Shown piece by piece: positions 39,173-49,861 of a DNA stretch of 64,000 nucleotides. The stretch lies in the NCBI RefSeq assembly GCF_900188415.1, contig NZ_FZNV01000001.1:833501-897500 (forward strand), in the 5' to 3' direction. How positions within the stretch are numbered: position 1 is the first letter of the stretch; every line of letters begins with the position of its first letter. Made by a program: the position numbers and the translations under genes. The notes beneath the pieces were generated by a model. The model made no database searches, was not told where the DNA came from, and saw nothing but the letters and a program-made list of their open reading frames with translations. The DNA is from Maribacter sedimenticola. GTDB taxonomy: Bacteria; Bacteroidota; Bacteroidia; Flavobacteriales; Flavobacteriaceae.

Positions 39173-41689
39173 CTAAAACCGTAATCTAAAACTGGCATTG
39201 GGAGTAAGGCCCAAGGATAATCGTTCTATTGTTTCTATAGAATTATCTTCACCTAATCTATAAAACGTATTCAATGTATTTTTTCTATTGGTGATATTCA
39301 ATATAGAGGCACCAAACGTTCCTTTAATGGTTTTGCCTAAAACAAACGTATAATTTGCAGATGCATCTGCCCTAATATATTCCGGTAATCTACTGCTGTT
39401 GGGTTCTTCGTAATTGATTTCACTAGGGAAAACTGTGTTGTCGATAGGGTCATCGGCATCTGGTCGGGTAAATGGTTTTCCGGATTTATAATTTAAACCC
39501 AAACCTAGTTTTAAGTGGCCTATGGTATAATTTCCGGCAAGGGTTATTGCGTGTCTTACATCTAGGTTGTTAGGGAATTTAGATGGTGTAAGGCTATTGA
39601 ATAGATAATCATTTTTATTGAACGTATAACTAAGCCATAGACTATAGTCGTTATTTTTCTTGTTGATTAAAAATTCAGCACCTTTGACCGCATAAGAGCC
39701 AATTTCACCATTAAACTGATTTTGATTTTGAAAACCTTGGGTAAAAACATTTATACCGTTGACCTCTTTGTAAAATCCGTCAATACCTATGTATAATTTA
39801 TCCGTGTCATAATTAACGCCTATAGAACCTTGTTTGCTTTTGGTAATGGGTAAGGTATTACCATCAGAAAGTATCCATCGTCTTTTTTCAATCCCCAAAA
39901 AATTCTGTTCTAAATCTATAATCTGATTGGTTACCTGGCTTTTAAATTCGCCCATTGCTTCGGTCTTGAAATTGGGGAGTAGTTCATAGGTAATATTTAA
40001 CCTGGGCTCCAGAATATATTCCTTAAAGGTGTTCAGGTTTTCAAAATAATTGAGTCGCCCTCCTATGCGCCCATAAAATTTGGAATCTTCAGATGTAAAT
40101 TGAAGCTCGCTGAACAAAGCATGCTTACGTATTACCCCTTTTATATTACTGGCAAAGGGTGGCTGGTTAATATTTGTTCTATTCTCTATACCTGTTTCCG
40201 TAAGTTCGTACCCATTGATCCAATCCAAATTTTTGCGCACTGCGTATTTGGTAATCAATTTTACACTGGATTCCTTGACCAAATTATTCTGTTGTAATCT
40301 TTGACTTTCATTATTTGAAATTGTCAGAGCATCCAGACCATATTGAGTATAATAGAATTGAAGGTCCGTAGTAAAATTACTTAACCAATTGCTTTGTAAT
40401 CTTGTGCCTAATGAAATGTTATCCTGATTTAAGTTACTACCATTAACAGCGTTACTGTCACTGGTTTCAAAATAACTAAGGTTGTTGCTCATATTGATCA
40501 TGCTGAGCTGAACTTTGTGGTCCTGGTCTATCTCATATAATACTTTTGCCGTAAAGTCATAAAAATAGAAATCACTTTCATTATCCACTTGGCTATCTTG
40601 AAATGCTTTTTCTGAAAATACGGTATAGGTGGGGGTGCTCAAAAAATCCGTATAGGACCTGCGTGCGGAAATTTGTATTCCTAAACGTTCATTAATTGGG
40701 ATATTGCCAAAGACATCCCCGGATATTAAATTGAAGCCTGTCCCACCATTGGTATAGATGGGCAATTGGTCAGAGGTACGTAAGTCCATAGTGCCGCTTA
40801 GACCATCTCCATAAATGGAGGACGTGCCGTTCTTTATAATGCTGACCTTATCCGTAACATAAGGGTTAAATGCTGAGATCAATCCAAAAAAATGTCCGGT
40901 CTGGTACATTTTAATATGGTCCCAAAGAACAAGATTTTGATCATTTGTACCTCCCCTAATGTTAATATCCGAAACGGTTTCATCTACACTCTTTATGCCT
41001 GGAAGGGCTTGTACTGTCTGTAATATATCAGGTTCGCTTATACCAGGCAAAATTCCAAATTTGGATAGATTAAGTTCAAAACTTGCATCGCTAAGTTTGT
41101 TCAGACCGGTGGTCAAAAATTGGGAAACTATGACCTCTTCCAATTCTTGATAGCTAAGTGCCATGGCTATTTTATGACACATAGCAGTATTTATAAGTTT
41201 TTCCACTTCTATGAATTGTGGCTTAAAACCTAAATGCTTTACGAGTACGAGCGCAGTTCTTGGAACATTATTCATATAAAACCTTCCTGTAGTATCGGTA
41301 ATACCGGTTAGTGATGTACCCAAAACTTCAACGGTTGCACCTGGTATGGTATTTTGCTCAAAATTATCTAGTACAAAGCCACAAATAGATACCGTGGAAA
41401 CCTTTGTCAAGCTATAATATCTGTCACTTAACTTTGTAATAACGATATCCGTATTTTGCTGAATATGGTCTAACTTGGATGTTAATGATTGTAAATCTAA
41501 CGGCTTAACATAGACATTTTCCAAAGCATTGTCCGCAAAGGAAAACTTTATGTCATGTTCCTGCTCCAAAGTCGTGAGATAATCCGAAAGGAGTATAGAG
41601 TCTTTTGCTACTTGCTGCCCCAAAGCAATTACGCTAAAGCACAGTAGTACAAGGCAAATAAGAATATGTTTATGGTGCTTTTTCTTCAT
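39173..41689 (-). CDS. STN-domain TonB-dependent transducer/receptor (FecA-like)
   Basis: This outer-membrane receptor has 838 residues from the ATG at 41689. A signal peptide ends near ALGQQ. A secretin/TonB N-terminal (STN) signalling domain follows (about 30-97, LSDYLTTLEQEHDIKFSFADN). A carboxypeptidase-regulatory-like domain comes next (about 100-178), then a plug (SDINIRGGTNDQNLVLWDHIKMYQTGH) and a barrel ending in ASFRLRF. STN domains contact FecR in the periplasm, and the fecR-like gene overlaps the start by 20 bases. It should sense and import a ligand and switch on the ECF sigma factor of the same operon. The ligand is not known; a siderophore motif is not evident. Confidence 0.9.
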   Translation of the reverse strand: MKKKHHKHILICLVLLCFSVIALGQQVAKDSILLSDYLTTLEQEHDIKFSFADNALENVYVKPLDLQSLTSKLDHIQQNTDIVITKLSDRYYSLTKVSTVSICGFVLDNFEQNTIPGATVEVLGTSLTGITDTTGRFYMNNVPRTALVLVKHLGFKPQFIEVEKLINTAMCHKIAMALSYQELEEVIVSQFLTTGLNKLSDASFELNLSKFGILPGISEPDILQTVQALPGIKSVDETVSDINIRGGTNDQNLVLWDHIKMYQTGHFFGLISAFNPYVTDKVSIIKNGTSSIYGDGLSGTMDLRTSDQLPIYTNGGTGFNLISGDVFGNIPINERLGIQISARRSYTDFLSTPTYTVFSEKAFQDSQVDNESDFYFYDFTAKVLYEIDQDHKVQLSMINMSNNLSYFETSDSNAVNGSNLNQDNISLGTRLQSNWLSNFTTDLQFYYTQYGLDALTISNNESQRLQQNNLVKESSVKLITKYAVRKNLDWINGYELTETGIENRTNINQPPFASNIKGVIRKHALFSELQFTSEDSKFYGRIGGRLNYFENLNTFKEYILEPRLNITYELLPNFKTEAMGEFKSQVTNQIIDLEQNFLGIEKRRWILSDGNTLPITKSKQGSIGVNYDTDKLYIGIDGFYKEVNGINVFTQGFQNQNQFNGEIGSYAVKGAEFLINKKNNDYSLWLSYTFNKNDYLFNSLTPSKFPNNLDVRHAITLAGNYTIGHLKLGLGLNYKSGKPFTRPDADDPIDNTVFPSEINYEEPNSSRLPEYIRADASANYTFVLGKTIKGTFGASILNITNRKNTLNTFYRLGEDNSIETIERLSLGLTPNASFRLRF

Positions 41690-42581
41690 AGAACAGCACT
41701 TGGTTTCCATCTAATTTAAATTTTATCTGTAATGGAACACTAATGCTTTTAAGGGCGAGCTCAAGATCGTCGTTATTGAAGGAACCGGTAAATAGTTGTT
41801 CTTTATCAATACCGCTATAGGTAACCTTAATGTTATATTGTCGCTGTAACTCATCCATTACATAATGCAAAGGTATGCTTCTGAATGAACTTTCGTTGGA
41901 TAACCAAGACGGTTTGCCGTTTACGGCTACTTTGTAAGTAGAACTTTTGCCATTTATTGCCAACAATGAATTGCCCGCGGGTAATTTTGTTTCTTTTCCG
42001 TTAATGGTTACACTTACCATTCCTTCATAACAGGCCACTTCAAAATAATCTTTTCTGTTTTCAACATTAAACTGGGTTCCAAGAACGGAGACAGTTCCGT
42101 GTGTGGTTGCTACGGTAAATTTTTTGCCTTTTGCTACTTTAAAATATGCCTCTCCCTCAAGTTCAATATTTCTCTTGTCGTCCCATTTCTTTTCATTATA
42201 GGCCAGTTCTGAGTCCGCATTAAGAATAACTTCAGATGTATCCGGTAGGGTTATGGTCTTATTTTCGGCATATGATGTAGTAATCGTTTTGTTTAACGTA
42301 TTCAAGTAGAAAAAAGAAGCTACTAACAATACGGTAATGGCCGCGGCTATGCGCAGGAAGGGTTTATAAGGGGCAAGGGTAAATACTTTGGGTGACTCCT
42401 TAACCTTATTTTGTTCAAGAGAATTATAGGCCGTATCCATATCAAAGGCCGGTGCTTCTAAATTAGAGGCGACATCCTTTATTTTTTTGTATGTGGCATA
42501 GGCTTCAGACTTTTTGAATTCTGCCATTTCCGCTTCGGTCAATTCATTGTTGAGCCATTTAGCCAAGTAATTTTCTTGCAT
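41670..42581 (-). CDS. FecR-family anti-sigma factor
   Basis: This inner-membrane regulator has 303 residues. The N-terminal cytosolic part binds the sigma factor. A single transmembrane helix lies at about 76-93 (FLRIAAAITVLLVASFFYL). The periplasmic FecR domain follows (LPDTSEVILNADSELAY, ELEGEAYFKVAKGKKFTV, VLGTQFNV). A C-terminal DUF4974 domain (IPLHYVMDELQRQYNIKVTY) should meet the STN domain of the receptor. The 3' end overlaps the receptor gene by 20 bases, which suggests coupled translation. Confidence 0.92.
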   Translation of the reverse strand: MQENYLAKWLNNELTEAEMAEFKKSEAYATYKKIKDVASNLEAPAFDMDTAYNSLEQNKVKESPKVFTLAPYKPFLRIAAAITVLLVASFFYLNTLNKTITTSYAENKTITLPDTSEVILNADSELAYNEKKWDDKRNIELEGEAYFKVAKGKKFTVATTHGTVSVLGTQFNVENRKDYFEVACYEGMVSVTINGKETKLPAGNSLLAINGKSSTYKVAVNGKPSWLSNESSFRSIPLHYVMDELQRQYNIKVTYSGIDKEQLFTGSFNNDDLELALKSISVPLQIKFKLDGNQVLFYEEKAP

Positions 42582-42693
42582 GTTTGTAGCTTTGTTTTAG
42601 TATAACAACCAAGTTTTTAAAAACCCTACTTTTTGTTTTTAGTATTTGGTAAAAGGTATCAACCAATAATGTTGCTTAATGGTATGTAATGTA

Positions 42694-42728
42694 TCTAACC
42701 TCTAACCTCTAACCTCTAATTTCTAATT
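42694..42728. repeat. Heptanucleotide tandem repeat (TCTAACC)
   Basis: Three perfect TCTAACC units (42694-42714) are followed by two TCTAATT variants (42715-42728). The last overlaps the stop codon of the sigma-factor gene at 42727-42729. In the direction of transcription the unit reads GGTTAGA and lies in the spacer between the sigma and fecR genes. Confidence 0.8.
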
Positions 42729-43239
42729 ATATTCCATCTATCTGCTCCCTTAAACTTTTCAGTGCCAAATGCATTCTTTTTTCAATCGCTTTTACACTTA
42801 CGTTTTCAATTGCCGCAATCTCCGCATATTTTTTTCCGTCTATCCTGTTAAGTAAAAATGTGGTACGTTGGTTTTCCGGTAATGCGTTTAGGGCATTGTC
42901 CAATTTTTGCTTGAACTCTGTTTCCTCCATGATAAATTCCGGAGATTCATTGGTTGTTCCTAAGGAAGGTGGGGCATACTTTAAACGTACCTTTTCTGCT
43001 TTAATAACATTAAGGTAAAGGTTATTGGCAATGGTATATACATACGATTTTGCTTTGTCCGGTGCTACCTTTGCACAATTCTCCCATAGTTTAACAAAAG
43101 CTTCCTGTACGGCATCATTGGCTTTTTCCTCGTTCCCGAATTTATAATAAATATAATTGAATACGGTTTTTGACGTTTCATTAAAAACGCTTCGGTAAAC
43201 CGCCTCTTCACATACATTTTGTGGTTGTTCTGTTTTCAA
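42727..43239 (-). CDS. ECF-type RNA polymerase sigma factor (FecI-like)
   Basis: The 170-residue sigma-70 factor has region 2 (KTVFNYIYYKFGNEEKANDAVQEAFVKLWENC) and region 4 (LPENQRTTFLLNRIDGKKYAEIAAIENVSVKAIEKRMHLALKSLRE). It is first in an operon with FecR and the STN receptor and should be held inactive by FecR until the receptor binds its ligand. The start codon is TTG at 43239; no ATG is in frame between the upstream stop and region 2. A TAnnTTTG box lies 17 bases upstream on the minus strand. Confidence 0.92.
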   Translation of the reverse strand: MKTEQPQNVCEEAVYRSVFNETSKTVFNYIYYKFGNEEKANDAVQEAFVKLWENCAKVAPDKAKSYVYTIANNLYLNVIKAEKVRLKYAPPSLGTTNESPEFIMEETEFKQKLDNALNALPENQRTTFLLNRIDGKKYAEIAAIENVSVKAIEKRMHLALKSLREQIDGI

Positions 43240-43255
43240 CAGGGTTTCTTTTTGT

Positions 43256-43263
43256 CAAAGATA
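43256..43263 (-). promoter_or_regulatory. TAnnTTTG promoter element of the sigma/fecR/receptor operon
   Basis: On the minus strand the sequence reads TATCTTTG, a full match to the housekeeping -7 box, 16 bases before the TTG start. No TTG is found 19-21 bases upstream. It suggests basal transcription by the primary sigma factor. Confidence 0.5.
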
Positions 43264-43345
43264 TTTTAAAAAAAATAAAAAAGTAGGTAGGGTTTTTATC
43301 AAGTTAATTGTTTTAGGGTTGTAATAACAATAATACCAAATCATT

Positions 43346-45118
43346 ATGAAAAAGTTTTTTAGTTATACCATGTATATTGGTCTTTTGGCCATGGCATTGA
43401 ACCTAACGTCATGTCAAGATGAATTTGAGGAGATCAATAACGGTGAAGAGCCACAGGCTATAGAGGCCAATTCTTCTACTGCAGATTTAATACAACGCAC
43501 AAGTTCCAATGATGGATCTTCAGACAATATAGTGGATGGGACCAGTTGCTTTCAAATAAAATTCCCATATACGGTAGAGGTGAACGGATTAACGCTTACC
43601 ATAGAATCTAAGGATGATCTAGAAACTATTGAGGAAATTTTTGATAGTATAGATGATGACGAAAATATTTTGGATATCATCTTTCCTATTACGGTAACTG
43701 CTGGGGATTTTACGGAAATTACGGTTAATGGCCTACAGGATTTACGGGAATTGGCGGCAGAATGTAAAGAAGGTGGGGAAGATGACGATATTGAGTGTAT
43801 TGACTTTGTATACCCTATGACCTTATACACCTTTAATGTTAATTTGGAGCAGACGAGCACGGTTCAGGTAGAAAGCGATCGTGAACTTAGATTGTTCTTT
43901 AAAGACTTGGGGAGCGACTCTTTAGTAAGTTTTGACTTTCCAATAACGCTAAAATTATATGATGATACCACAATAGAGGTTGCTAACCATAGAGAATTGG
44001 CAAGTGCCATTGAAAATGCCAAGGATGATTGTGACGAAGATGATGATGATGATTACAATGATGATGATTTTAATGATGACGAATTTAAGGAAACATTGGT
44101 TGAGTGTGTATGGTTCATTACTGAATTTAAAAGGGACAATATGGATCAAACACCGCAATTTGTCAATTACATTTTAAACTTTAAGGAAGACGGAACTGTA
44201 GTTACCGGATTCAGGGGAGCTACTACGGTACAAGGAACTTGGAGTACCGCTGTAGGTGAAGATGGAGCTCAACTTACCATGGACTTTGATGCCAGTACGG
44301 ATTTTAATTTGGAATGGAATGTGTATGATATGGGTGATGACAAGATCAAATTGTACAATGGGGAAGGTAATCGTATTGTTATGAAACAATTTTGTGCAGA
44401 GGATTTACCGGTAATTACCATTGATAGTATTCGTGAAACACTGCGGGATTGTACCTGGGCCATTAAAAGGGTCAAGAACAATGGGGAACATGTAAACAGG
44501 CTTCTTGGTAGTGAATTTGAATTTCAGGCAAACGGTGTCATTACCTTATCTAATGAAACCACGGTATCAGAAGGAACATGGGAAATTACTACTAATGCAC
44601 AGGGTAGATTTGTCGTAGCCATTAATATGGGTCAAGAAGGAGCCGTTAGTTTTGAATGGTTGTTGACCGATCTCAAGGATAGGATTATAAAGTTTAATGT
44701 TGAAGAGACTTTCTATGAATTGGTCATTGTTAAAAGCTGTGAGGTAGATGAAGAAGAGGAAGAGGATATTACCTATATAAAGGATGTTTTCAGTGATACC
44801 CAATGGGATATTGCATTGTTCTCGGAAAATGAGGACGAGTCAACGGAACTTTATATGAACGATACCCTATATTTTAACGCAGATGGTAGTTTAGAAGTAC
44901 GTAACCCTAATGAAGTGGTACTTAGTACAGGTAGATGGTTTGCCTATAGAAACGCCTTTAGCGGTAAATTGGAAATGATTATTTCCTTTGTTCCCGGTAG
45001 TAATTACTTGGCTTTGGCCAATGATTATCAGATCATGGAGGTAACCGAGACAAGAATTGAACTCAAGCACGAAAACGAAATTGAAGGTTACGACCATTTG
45101 GTCTTGGAAAGAGAATAA
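43346..45118 (+). CDS. Repeat-built acidic lipoprotein divergent from ECF operon
   Basis: The 590-residue lipoprotein (lipobox LNLTSC, Cys23) has two kinds of internal repeat. Residues about 68-228 contain four units of about 40 residues sharing FPYTVEV/FPITVTA/YPMTLYT/FPITLKL followed by a VxSxxEL-type strand. An aspartate-rich linker (about 228-246) follows. Three units of about 100 residues (about 251-355, 368-475, 490-590) each begin with C/TxWxI and include an FxxDG turn and a GTW or GRW strand, resembling small beta-barrel (lipocalin-like) modules. No enzyme motif is seen. Placed head-to-head with the sigma/FecR/receptor operon, it may be its regulatory target or a surface ligand-binding partner (inference). 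Confidence 0.75.
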   Translation: MKKFFSYTMYIGLLAMALNLTSCQDEFEEINNGEEPQAIEANSSTADLIQRTSSNDGSSDNIVDGTSCFQIKFPYTVEVNGLTLTIESKDDLETIEEIFDSIDDDENILDIIFPITVTAGDFTEITVNGLQDLRELAAECKEGGEDDDIECIDFVYPMTLYTFNVNLEQTSTVQVESDRELRLFFKDLGSDSLVSFDFPITLKLYDDTTIEVANHRELASAIENAKDDCDEDDDDDYNDDDFNDDEFKETLVECVWFITEFKRDNMDQTPQFVNYILNFKEDGTVVTGFRGATTVQGTWSTAVGEDGAQLTMDFDASTDFNLEWNVYDMGDDKIKLYNGEGNRIVMKQFCAEDLPVITIDSIRETLRDCTWAIKRVKNNGEHVNRLLGSEFEFQANGVITLSNETTVSEGTWEITTNAQGRFVVAINMGQEGAVSFEWLLTDLKDRIIKFNVEETFYELVIVKSCEVDEEEEEDITYIKDVFSDTQWDIALFSENEDESTELYMNDTLYFNADGSLEVRNPNEVVLSTGRWFAYRNAFSGKLEMIISFVPGSNYLALANDYQIMEVTETRIELKHENEIEGYDHLVLERE

Positions 45119-45243: not shown

Positions 45244-45278
45244 AGAGCATCTATTTTATATAGATGCTCTTTTGTTTT
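45244..45278 (+). terminator. Second strong terminator before ffh
   Basis: AGAGCATCTA (45244-45253) and TAGATGCTCT (45261-45270) form a perfect 10-bp stem with a 7-base loop, followed by TTTGTTTT. It lies about 45 bases before the ffh promoter element. Confidence 0.8.
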
Positions 45279-48130: not shown

Positions 48131-49861
48131 ATGAAAAAATTTGTAATTGCTATAATACTGCTAAATATTGTTTTCACTAGTTGTGAAAAGGTGGTAAAGC
48201 CCATTTATAATATCAATGTAACCTTAGATGAAACGGTAAGTGCATCAAAAAAAGACGGTAGGTTACTACTTATGTTATCTACAGACGATAGTGATGAGCC
48301 TCGTTTTCAGATTAATGACGGATTAAATACGCAACTCATATTTGGTGTTAATGTCAATGATTGGGAACCGGGCACACCCATTTCATTTGATGCCAGTGTT
48401 TTTGGCTATCCCTATGAAAGTTTAAAGGATGTACCACCAGGGGAATATAATGTACAAGCACTATTACATGTCTATGAAACTTTTAACCTTTCTAGTGGAC
48501 ATACCGTGAAACTTCCAATGGATAATGGCGAAGGCCAACAATGGCAAAGGTCTCCGGGCAATTTATATAGTAAACCGTTTAAGGTAAGGGTGGCAACCAA
48601 TGGTTTTGAAAACGTATCGGTTACCTTGGATCAAGTTATTCCGCCCATAGAGGAGCCAACAGATACTAAGTGGATAAAACATATAAAGGTTAAATCAGAA
48701 AAACTGTCCGCCTTTTGGGGCCGTGATATTTATCTTGGTGCACATGTTTTGCTTCCCAAAGGTTTTGATGAGCATCCTGAAGCCAAGTATCCGTTAATGG
48801 TCTTCCATGGTCACTTTCCCTCGGATTTTGGAGGTTTCAGGACCACCCCTCCAGACCCCAACCTTACACCTGAATATTCAGAACGGTTTAATTTGGAAGG
48901 ATATAATATAATTCAACAACAAGAGGCTTATGATTTTTACAAGCGATGGAACGCGCCCGATTTCCCTCGTTTCATAATTATAGAAATTCAACATCCAACA
49001 CCGTATTATGACGATTCTTATGCCGTAAATTCTGCCAGTCAAGGTCCTTACGGGGACGCTATTACCTATGAGCTAATTCCTGAAATTGAAAAACAGTTTA
49101 GGGGAATAGGCGAGGGGTGGTCTCGTTTTTTATATGGCGGTTCTACCGGTGGTTGGGAAGCATTGGCGGTACAGGTAAAATACCCGGAAGAATATAACGG
49201 ATGTTTTGCGGCTTGTCCTGACCCCATAGATTTTAGGGCCTATACGTTAACCAATATCTATGAGGATAAAAATGCCTATTATTATCCAAGTAGGCACAAA
49301 CAACTGGAAGTGCCTGCCCATCGTAACTATTTAGGGCAAATACAATCTACCCTGCGCCAAGGAAATCATTTGGAACTGGTATTGGGGGACAAATCTAGGT
49401 CGGGACAACAATGGGATATATGGGAAGCTACATATTCTCCCCAAGGAGATGATGGATACCCGGTAAGGATTTGGGATAAGATGACCGGAGATATAGACCA
49501 TGAAGTAGCGGAATACTGGAAGGAGAATTATGATCTTAGGCATATCTTGCAACGAGATTGGGGTAAACTAGGGGATAATTTAAAAGGTAAGATTCATATC
49601 TACTGTGGGGATATGGATAATTATTATTTGAACAATGCCGTATATCTTATGGAAGACTTTCTGGAAAGTACCACGGATCCATATTATGAAGGAGAAGTGC
49701 TATATGGCGACCGAGCGGAACATTGTTGGAACGGAGACCCGGAACAGCCCAATGCCATTTCCAGACTTCGTTACAATAGTATGTACGTACCAAAGATCAT
49801 GGAGCGTATTGAAAAAAGTGCTCCTAAAGATGCCGATTTAACGAGTTGGAGGTATGAATAA
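48131..49861 (+). CDS. Esterase-like alpha/beta-hydrolase lipoprotein
   Basis: The 576-residue lipoprotein (lipobox IVFTSC, Cys18) has two parts. Residues about 25-170 form a beta-rich domain (YNINVTLDETV, LLLMLSTDD, PPGEYNVQALLHVYETF) of unknown role. From about 185 a PF00756-like esterase fold begins (AHVLLPKGFD, PLMVFHGHFP), with the nucleophile S338 in YGGSTGGWEALA. A likely catalytic histidine lies in DRAEHCWNGD, about residue 537. It should act in the periplasm or on the cell surface. An aldo/keto reductase gene follows 39 bases later. The substrate is unknown; acyl or feruloyl-type esters are possible. Confidence 0.82.
   Translation: MKKFVIAIILLNIVFTSCEKVVKPIYNINVTLDETVSASKKDGRLLLMLSTDDSDEPRFQINDGLNTQLIFGVNVNDWEPGTPISFDASVFGYPYESLKDVPPGEYNVQALLHVYETFNLSSGHTVKLPMDNGEGQQWQRSPGNLYSKPFKVRVATNGFENVSVTLDQVIPPIEEPTDTKWIKHIKVKSEKLSAFWGRDIYLGAHVLLPKGFDEHPEAKYPLMVFHGHFPSDFGGFRTTPPDPNLTPEYSERFNLEGYNIIQQQEAYDFYKRWNAPDFPRFIIIEIQHPTPYYDDSYAVNSASQGPYGDAITYELIPEIEKQFRGIGEGWSRFLYGGSTGGWEALAVQVKYPEEYNGCFAACPDPIDFRAYTLTNIYEDKNAYYYPSRHKQLEVPAHRNYLGQIQSTLRQGNHLELVLGDKSRSGQQWDIWEATYSPQGDDGYPVRIWDKMTGDIDHEVAEYWKENYDLRHILQRDWGKLGDNLKGKIHIYCGDMDNYYLNNAVYLMEDFLESTTDPYYEGEVLYGDRAEHCWNGDPEQPNAISRLRYNSMYVPKIMERIEKSAPKDADLTSWRYE

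Follow-up and report, generated by a model that had tools for sequence, protein, structure and literature searches.

The window analyzed here is a stretch of 64,000 nucleotides from Maribacter sedimenticola (contig NZ_FZNV01000001.1, positions 833,501 to 897,500), in which three genes for a cell-surface signaling relay lie head-to-head with a gene for a repeat-built lipoprotein. Is this lipoprotein a target of the relay, a surface partner of its receptor, or an incidental neighbor? An earlier note, made from the letters of this DNA, had described four genes here, and all four lie where it placed them: an STN-type TonB-dependent transducer or receptor (845 amino acids (aa); positions 39173-41710, minus strand; Pfam and a fold model); a FecR-type anti-sigma factor (303 aa; 41670-42581, minus strand; Pfam FecR and FecR_C, and sequence); an extracytoplasmic function (ECF) sigma factor (170 aa; 42727-43239, minus strand; Pfam Sigma70_r2 and r4_2); and the lipoprotein (590 aa; 43346-45118, plus strand; sequence, family conservation and an AlphaFold (AF2) model), which belongs to no Pfam or NCBIfam family. 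Our analysis suggests that these genes probably form a self-contained surface signaling unit, in which the sigma factor would drive the promoters of both the FecR-receptor genes and the lipoprotein gene, and the lipoprotein would partner the receptor.

Conservation of the four-gene unit

Members of the lipoprotein family occur in 274 of the 399 genomes of the host family, Flavobacteriaceae (245 of the 332 of good quality), and in 182 of its 237 genera. The gene order, with receptor, FecR and sigma factor on one strand and the lipoprotein divergent from them, is complete in 71 of 72 fetched loci, which span both the ancestral site, flanked by argS and ffh-folD, and paralogous sites elsewhere; FecR and the receptor are separate genes in every complete locus. 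A second collection of 80 named loci (Maribacter, Eudoraea, Zeaxanthinibacter, Flagellimonas, Algibacter and others) contains 70 intact units, and nearly all of the remaining 10 are cut by a contig end or frameshifted. The lipoprotein thus stays beside the sigma/FecR/receptor set, in paralogous copies too, which is the point on which the earlier note had staked its proposal. The exception among the 72 (L061 of genome G261) keeps the sigma factor and the lipoprotein and has other genes in place of FecR and the receptor; it provides a natural test of whether the sigma factor has turned constitutive. Four-gene units also occur in other families (L308-L323), where the distant versions include a repeat lipoprotein that is divergent from sigma (L318) and one on the same strand as the sigma, FecR and receptor genes (L319). 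We found no description of the unit, or of its hallmark lipoprotein, in the open-access literature searched.

Evolutionary distances of the lipoprotein also follow those of the receptor beyond what is seen for Ffh and FolD, two housekeeping neighbors (partial r of 0.53 with the N-terminal module and of 0.45 with the C-terminal one). Since FecR and sigma give similar values, the correlation speaks for the unit as a whole and not for a particular contact with the receptor.

A common promoter motif within the unit

An ECF-type motif, GTAGGGT-N14-TTGTTWTA, has only two matches in the window, against a shuffle expectation of 0.00. Found by motif search, one is a promoter-like element of the lipoprotein gene (GTAGGGT-N14-TTGTTTTA; 43287-43315, plus strand) and the other precedes fecR, and with it the FecR-receptor genes (GTAGGGT-N14-TTGTTATA; 42601-42629, minus strand). 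The three minus-strand genes had been described as one operon with overlaps. This holds for FecR and the receptor, whose genes overlap by 41 bp, and fails for sigma and FecR, which are separated by a gap of 145 bp that contains the FecR motif. The sigma open reading frame has no ATG start, and TTG is the likeliest start codon.

With the loose class of the motif counted, it precedes the lipoprotein in 69 of the 72 loci, FecR in 70 and both in 68, and lies upstream of sigma in none. This common ECF-type promoter, before the lipoprotein and FecR and never before sigma, is what is new here. Its -35 boxes fall into three classes (GTAGGGT, GTAGGA and TCAGGA), and in 57 of 58 strict pairs the lipoprotein and FecR promoters of a unit belong to the same class, compared to a mean of 29.4 and a maximum of 40 after shuffling. 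Where one genome carries two units (L066 and L108 in G289; L076 and L102 in G183), the units have different -35 boxes, each matched inside its own unit. Because both promoters change together across paralogous units, the lipoprotein is almost certainly, by this motif evidence, a direct target of its own sigma factor, as had been proposed. Most simply read, each sigma would drive the lipoprotein gene and the FecR-receptor genes of its own unit; that the sigma factor of this unit reads the motif at both promoters appears well supported computationally.

Anatomy of the lipoprotein

The lipoprotein begins with a signal peptide, a lipobox at Cys23 and an acidic export signal, CQDEFEE (43346-43435, plus strand), recognized from the sequence and its relatives. 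Acidic residues follow the lipobox cysteine in 50 of the 51 relatives that have a recognized lipobox, and QDEFEE resembles SDDFE, the surface-export signal reported for F. johnsoniae (PMC5080379).

The core module (43541-44035, plus strand), delimited by shuffling tests, conservation and the AF2 model, consists of four strand-strand-(strand)-helix repeats of about 40 residues each. Pairwise shuffling relates R2 to R4 (z = 5.6), R3 to R4 (5.5) and R2 to R3 (3.2); R1 reaches a z of only 1.6-2.1 against R2-R4 by sequence, and the model gives all four, R1 included, a similar plan. Conservation and the AF2 model define the Asp-rich linker that follows (44021-44089, plus strand; residues about 230-241), which is nearly invariant and modeled with low confidence, and which may be either disordered or metal-binding. 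Three lipocalin-like domains (44075-45115, plus strand; residues about 244-351, 359-466 and 473-590) complete the protein; they were delimited by shuffling tests, AF2 and Foldseek, with a z of 10.9 for D1-D2, 5.5 for D2-D3 and 3.5 for D1-D3. Both the internal repeats and the Asp-rich linker of the earlier note are therefore present, the repeats beyond chance. Because the predicted template modeling score (pTM) is 0.50, at a mean predicted local distance difference test score (pLDDT) of 83.8, the domains are credible and their arrangement is unreliable.

Cysteines 68/140, 151/229 and 254/350 are invariant or near-invariant among relatives, which suggests one disulfide per structural unit; the core repeats are likely two disulfide-closed pairs, bounded by Cys 68/140 and Cys 151/229. 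At the model level, the C-terminal domains have the fold of the Bacteroides lipocalin-like proteins (PDB 4qrl, 5byp and 4zgf), with 4qrl giving a Foldseek TM(target) of 0.66 and a root-mean-square deviation (rmsd) of 3.2 over 118 columns. Here, however, the domains stand in tandem on a repeat-built lipoprotein, and identity is only 14-16%. Relatives keep the N-terminal module and the Asp-rich stretch, and the number of lipocalin-like domains varies (open frames of about 227-700 aa). In five loci (L066, L074, L122, L124 and L126) a second full-length lipoprotein, or an extra single lipocalin-like protein of 158-165 aa, lies between the lipoprotein and ffh.

No Pfam or NCBIfam match gives the window protein a family name; the Lipocalin_4, DUF4923 and GH43_C profiles, which match a few relatives weakly, do not match it. 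Membership in the SusD family was rejected, as neither the window protein nor 56 relatives have a Pfam or NCBIfam SusD match. Also set aside were the only, weak, match of a PDB sequence search, to designed armadillo repeats, which is put down to composition, and a TbpB/LbpB fold (TM about 0.13, rmsd 19-25).

Sigma factor, FecR and receptor

The sigma factor matches Pfam Sigma70_r2 and r4_2 without r3, which is the ECF layout, and scores 113.6 bits against TIGR02985, under the cutoff of 126.4. FecR matches PF04773 (1.2e-20) and PF16344 (4e-12), and its sequence contains a single hydrophobic segment after about 73 residues, as in the anti-sigma factors of FecI-FecR-FecA systems. The receptor consists of a signal peptide, an STN-like domain (residues about 38-104), a CarboxypepD_reg-like domain (109-195), a plug and a barrel. 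Its Pfam matches are CarbopepD_reg_2 and Plug, and a PDB sequence search found no match. Although STN itself falls below the Pfam threshold in the window protein, the receptors of 44 relatives match FecR_C in 23 cases and STN in 3, and the model (pLDDT 82.8, pTM 0.71) matches full-length FpvA and FoxA including their signaling domains, and also FecA. These matches, together with the STN-like domain at the N-terminus, make the receptor one of the transducer type, and its designation as an STN receptor stands.

Motif sites across Maribacter and a candidate small RNA

The genome searches were confined to strict matches because a one-mismatch search of the window's own genome gave 41 matches against 18 for the control, many of them inside genes. 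Across 36 Maribacter genomes, 83 strict matches stand against 1 for the reversed pattern. By coordinates and by reading of the loci, these were assigned to the lipoprotein (29), FecR (15), a site upstream of guaA (24), dapD (5) and others (10). The dapD matches were rejected as promoters, since they lie inside the coding sequence (verified in L296 of genome G012, and in four more by near-identical sequence), and were put down to chance or codon conservation.

The guaA-side site is intergenic, beside a pdxH-like gene, and occurs in 24 of the 36 genomes. The motif is followed there by about 100 nucleotides that end in a terminator. In its stem 98.5% of cells pair, and three base pairs have both partners changed, more than shuffles and slides give. 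The window's own genome (G000) has this RNA-like element outside the window, at C20:59283-59410. We consider it, from its sequence, a candidate sigma-dependent small RNA. Rfam gives nothing at the gathering threshold for the candidate loci, and a leader peptide is unlikely because the start and stop of the tiny open reading frame (MKKKI or similar) are not conserved. A family-wide search for the promoter with a strict terminator core found one further genus that is convincing (G210 and G391), with G108 uncertain. At the guaA/pdxH site (L230-L247, L293, L297-L301 and L305-L306) a second, similar terminator-ended element often follows in tandem, with the pattern GGTTGGTT...AAGCCCGG..CCGGGCTT.

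Several envelope genes also lie behind the strict or a slightly looser motif. These include DUF4382 lipoproteins (L219, L224, L225 and, in the window's own genome with TTAGGGT, L228; confirmed by Pfam in L228, L219 and L225), PepSY_like lipoproteins (L219 and L223), a glycine-rich exported protein (L295, and L229 in the genome of the window), a membrane protein of 55 aa encoded behind an OmpA-family gene (L218, L227, L291 and L292) and a 542-aa lipoprotein (L290). In another family, the gene immediately behind the lipoprotein of the unit encodes a DUF4382-like lipoprotein (L313:6315-7025, minus strand), which matches the DUF4382 genes that the motif precedes in Maribacter.

Other features of the locus

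The sigma-fecR gap of the window contains a heptamer tandem array, TCTAACC x3.7 (42694-42719, no strand assigned), found by repeat scans, and the corresponding gaps of relatives (for instance L064, L089, L094, L123 and L126) contain 7- or 8-base arrays whose unit sequence varies from species to species. Exact three-copy arrays with a period of 5-10 number 29 in the 1.15 Mb of loci, and 23 of them fall in the 10.6 kb of sigma-fecR gaps. A looser scan for periods 6-9 finds arrays in 52 of 155 of these gaps, with the ffh-folD gap also raised (24 of 121). Such arrays could tune read-through and the sigma/anti-sigma ratio. A terminator-like hairpin lies 3' of the lipoprotein gene (45244-45270, plus strand); terminator-like matches in the region occur only at the chance number. 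Many relatives share, downstream of folD, an esterase-like lipoprotein (PF00756 just above cutoff; window positions 48131-49861) that is conserved with identities of 74-88%.

What the unit may do

All testable features of FecI-FecR-FecA systems (E. coli Fec, P. aeruginosa FpvA/FoxA) are found in the unit: an ECF sigma factor, FecR and an STN receptor encoded by adjoining genes, with sigma-type promoters, as judged by sequence, before the adjacent target genes. It differs from these systems in that a fourth, divergent gene, that of the surface lipoprotein, is obligatory, there is no siderophore link, the motif also occurs at a candidate small RNA, and a CarboxypepD_reg-like domain stands between STN and the plug of the receptor. 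By analogy, the outer-membrane receptor would read a ligand or the state of the surface, its periplasmic STN domain would signal to FecR in the inner membrane, and FecR would then free the sigma factor. Sigma would drive the FecR and receptor promoter, as feedback, and that of the divergent lipoprotein, its own gene being without the motif; in Maribacter the same promoter motif also stands before the small-RNA-like element and a handful of genes for envelope lipoproteins and for small membrane proteins. The lipoprotein core, with its four repeats and Asp-rich linker, would be displayed outside, most likely as the receptor's capture, lid or sensing partner, and the lipocalin-like domains would form a variable outer extension. 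The surface export signal and the correlated evolution make a role as co-receptor plausible.

Several points weigh against this self-contained signaling unit. Shared ancestry accounts for part of the promoter concordance and is not fully removed from the distance correlations, the assignment of sigma to its promoters has a basis in sequence only, the domains of the lipoprotein model are unreliably arranged, and no metabolic genes point to a ligand.

A serious possibility, which we nevertheless rate somewhat below even, is that the transducer reads the state of the outer membrane, such as lipoprotein load or damage, and that the response of sigma consists of protective lipoproteins, small membrane proteins and a small RNA, functionally comparable to sigma-E of enterobacteria or Das/Dma of Bacteroides. 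The Maribacter genes under the motif (DUF4382 and PepSY_like lipoproteins, the glycine-rich exported protein and the 55-aa membrane protein) fit such a role, as does the terminator-ended element with its covarying stem. There is precedent in Bacteroides, where an envelope-spanning anti-sigma factor controls vesiculation, Dma1 acting via the NigD1 protein (PMC13088901), and a similar one gives toxin protection (PMC9308784). Das/Dma shares with the unit an ECF sigma factor controlled from an outer-membrane barrel, and Dma has envelope outputs (PMC13088901). However, Dma is one fused protein (anti-sigma, transmembrane segment, tether and barrel), whereas FecR and the receptor are separate here; with no fusion, the unit is not a Dma system. 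The regulon members are also thin beyond the three main sites and vary between species.

It is conceivable, though rather doubtful, that the receptor is instead a true transporter, with the lipoprotein as a lid that captures the ligand in the manner of SusD or BtuG, and with sigma/FecR as a means of substrate-dependent induction. The receptor's complete plug and barrel, the lipoprotein's export signal and the constant gene partnership are consistent with this, and BtuB-BtuG offers a precedent for a stable transporter-lipoprotein pair (PMC10404256). The SusC/SusD and BtuB/BtuG/BtuH pairs of Bacteroidota likewise combine a TonB-dependent barrel with a surface-exported lipoprotein. Here, however, the lipoprotein, made of repeats and lipocalin-like domains, is neither SusD nor a member of another curated family, so the unit is not a SusC/SusD system, and no degradation or vitamin genes are associated with it. 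Neither siderophore genes, whose absence the earlier note had remarked on, nor enzyme genes are attached at the ortholog locus. Envelope control is at least as likely as nutrient uptake because of the other genes under the motif, as the RNA element and the unrelated envelope lipoproteins fit it better.

That this is an iron or siderophore system of the ordinary FecI-FecR-FecA kind, beside which the lipoprotein merely happens to lie, is very improbable, even though domain architecture and fold are the same in kind as in FpvA/FoxA/FecA, because the lipoprotein is conserved in every complete locus and paralog and stands under the same promoter, and no siderophore genes are present.

The unit is carried by Maribacter and most relatives in a major marine family, yet its hallmark lipoprotein has no Pfam or NCBIfam name. 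The motif is a direct handle on it: it predicts a regulon, with a candidate sigma-dependent small RNA among its members, in genomes whose ECF regulons are largely unmapped. The paralogous units, whose -35 boxes can differ between units and match within each, resemble sigma-promoter pairs that nature has insulated from one another. More speculatively, and we hold this to be unlikely on present evidence, the unit may belong to a Bacteroidota-wide envelope-surveillance pathway whose sensor is made up of a TonB-dependent transducer and a surface lipoprotein dedicated to it. The ECF sigma factor would then respond through envelope lipoproteins, small membrane proteins and a small RNA that acts in trans. 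If true, such a pathway would be the surface-sensing equivalent of the sigma-E/small-RNA response, and a new lipoprotein family would be its hallmark.

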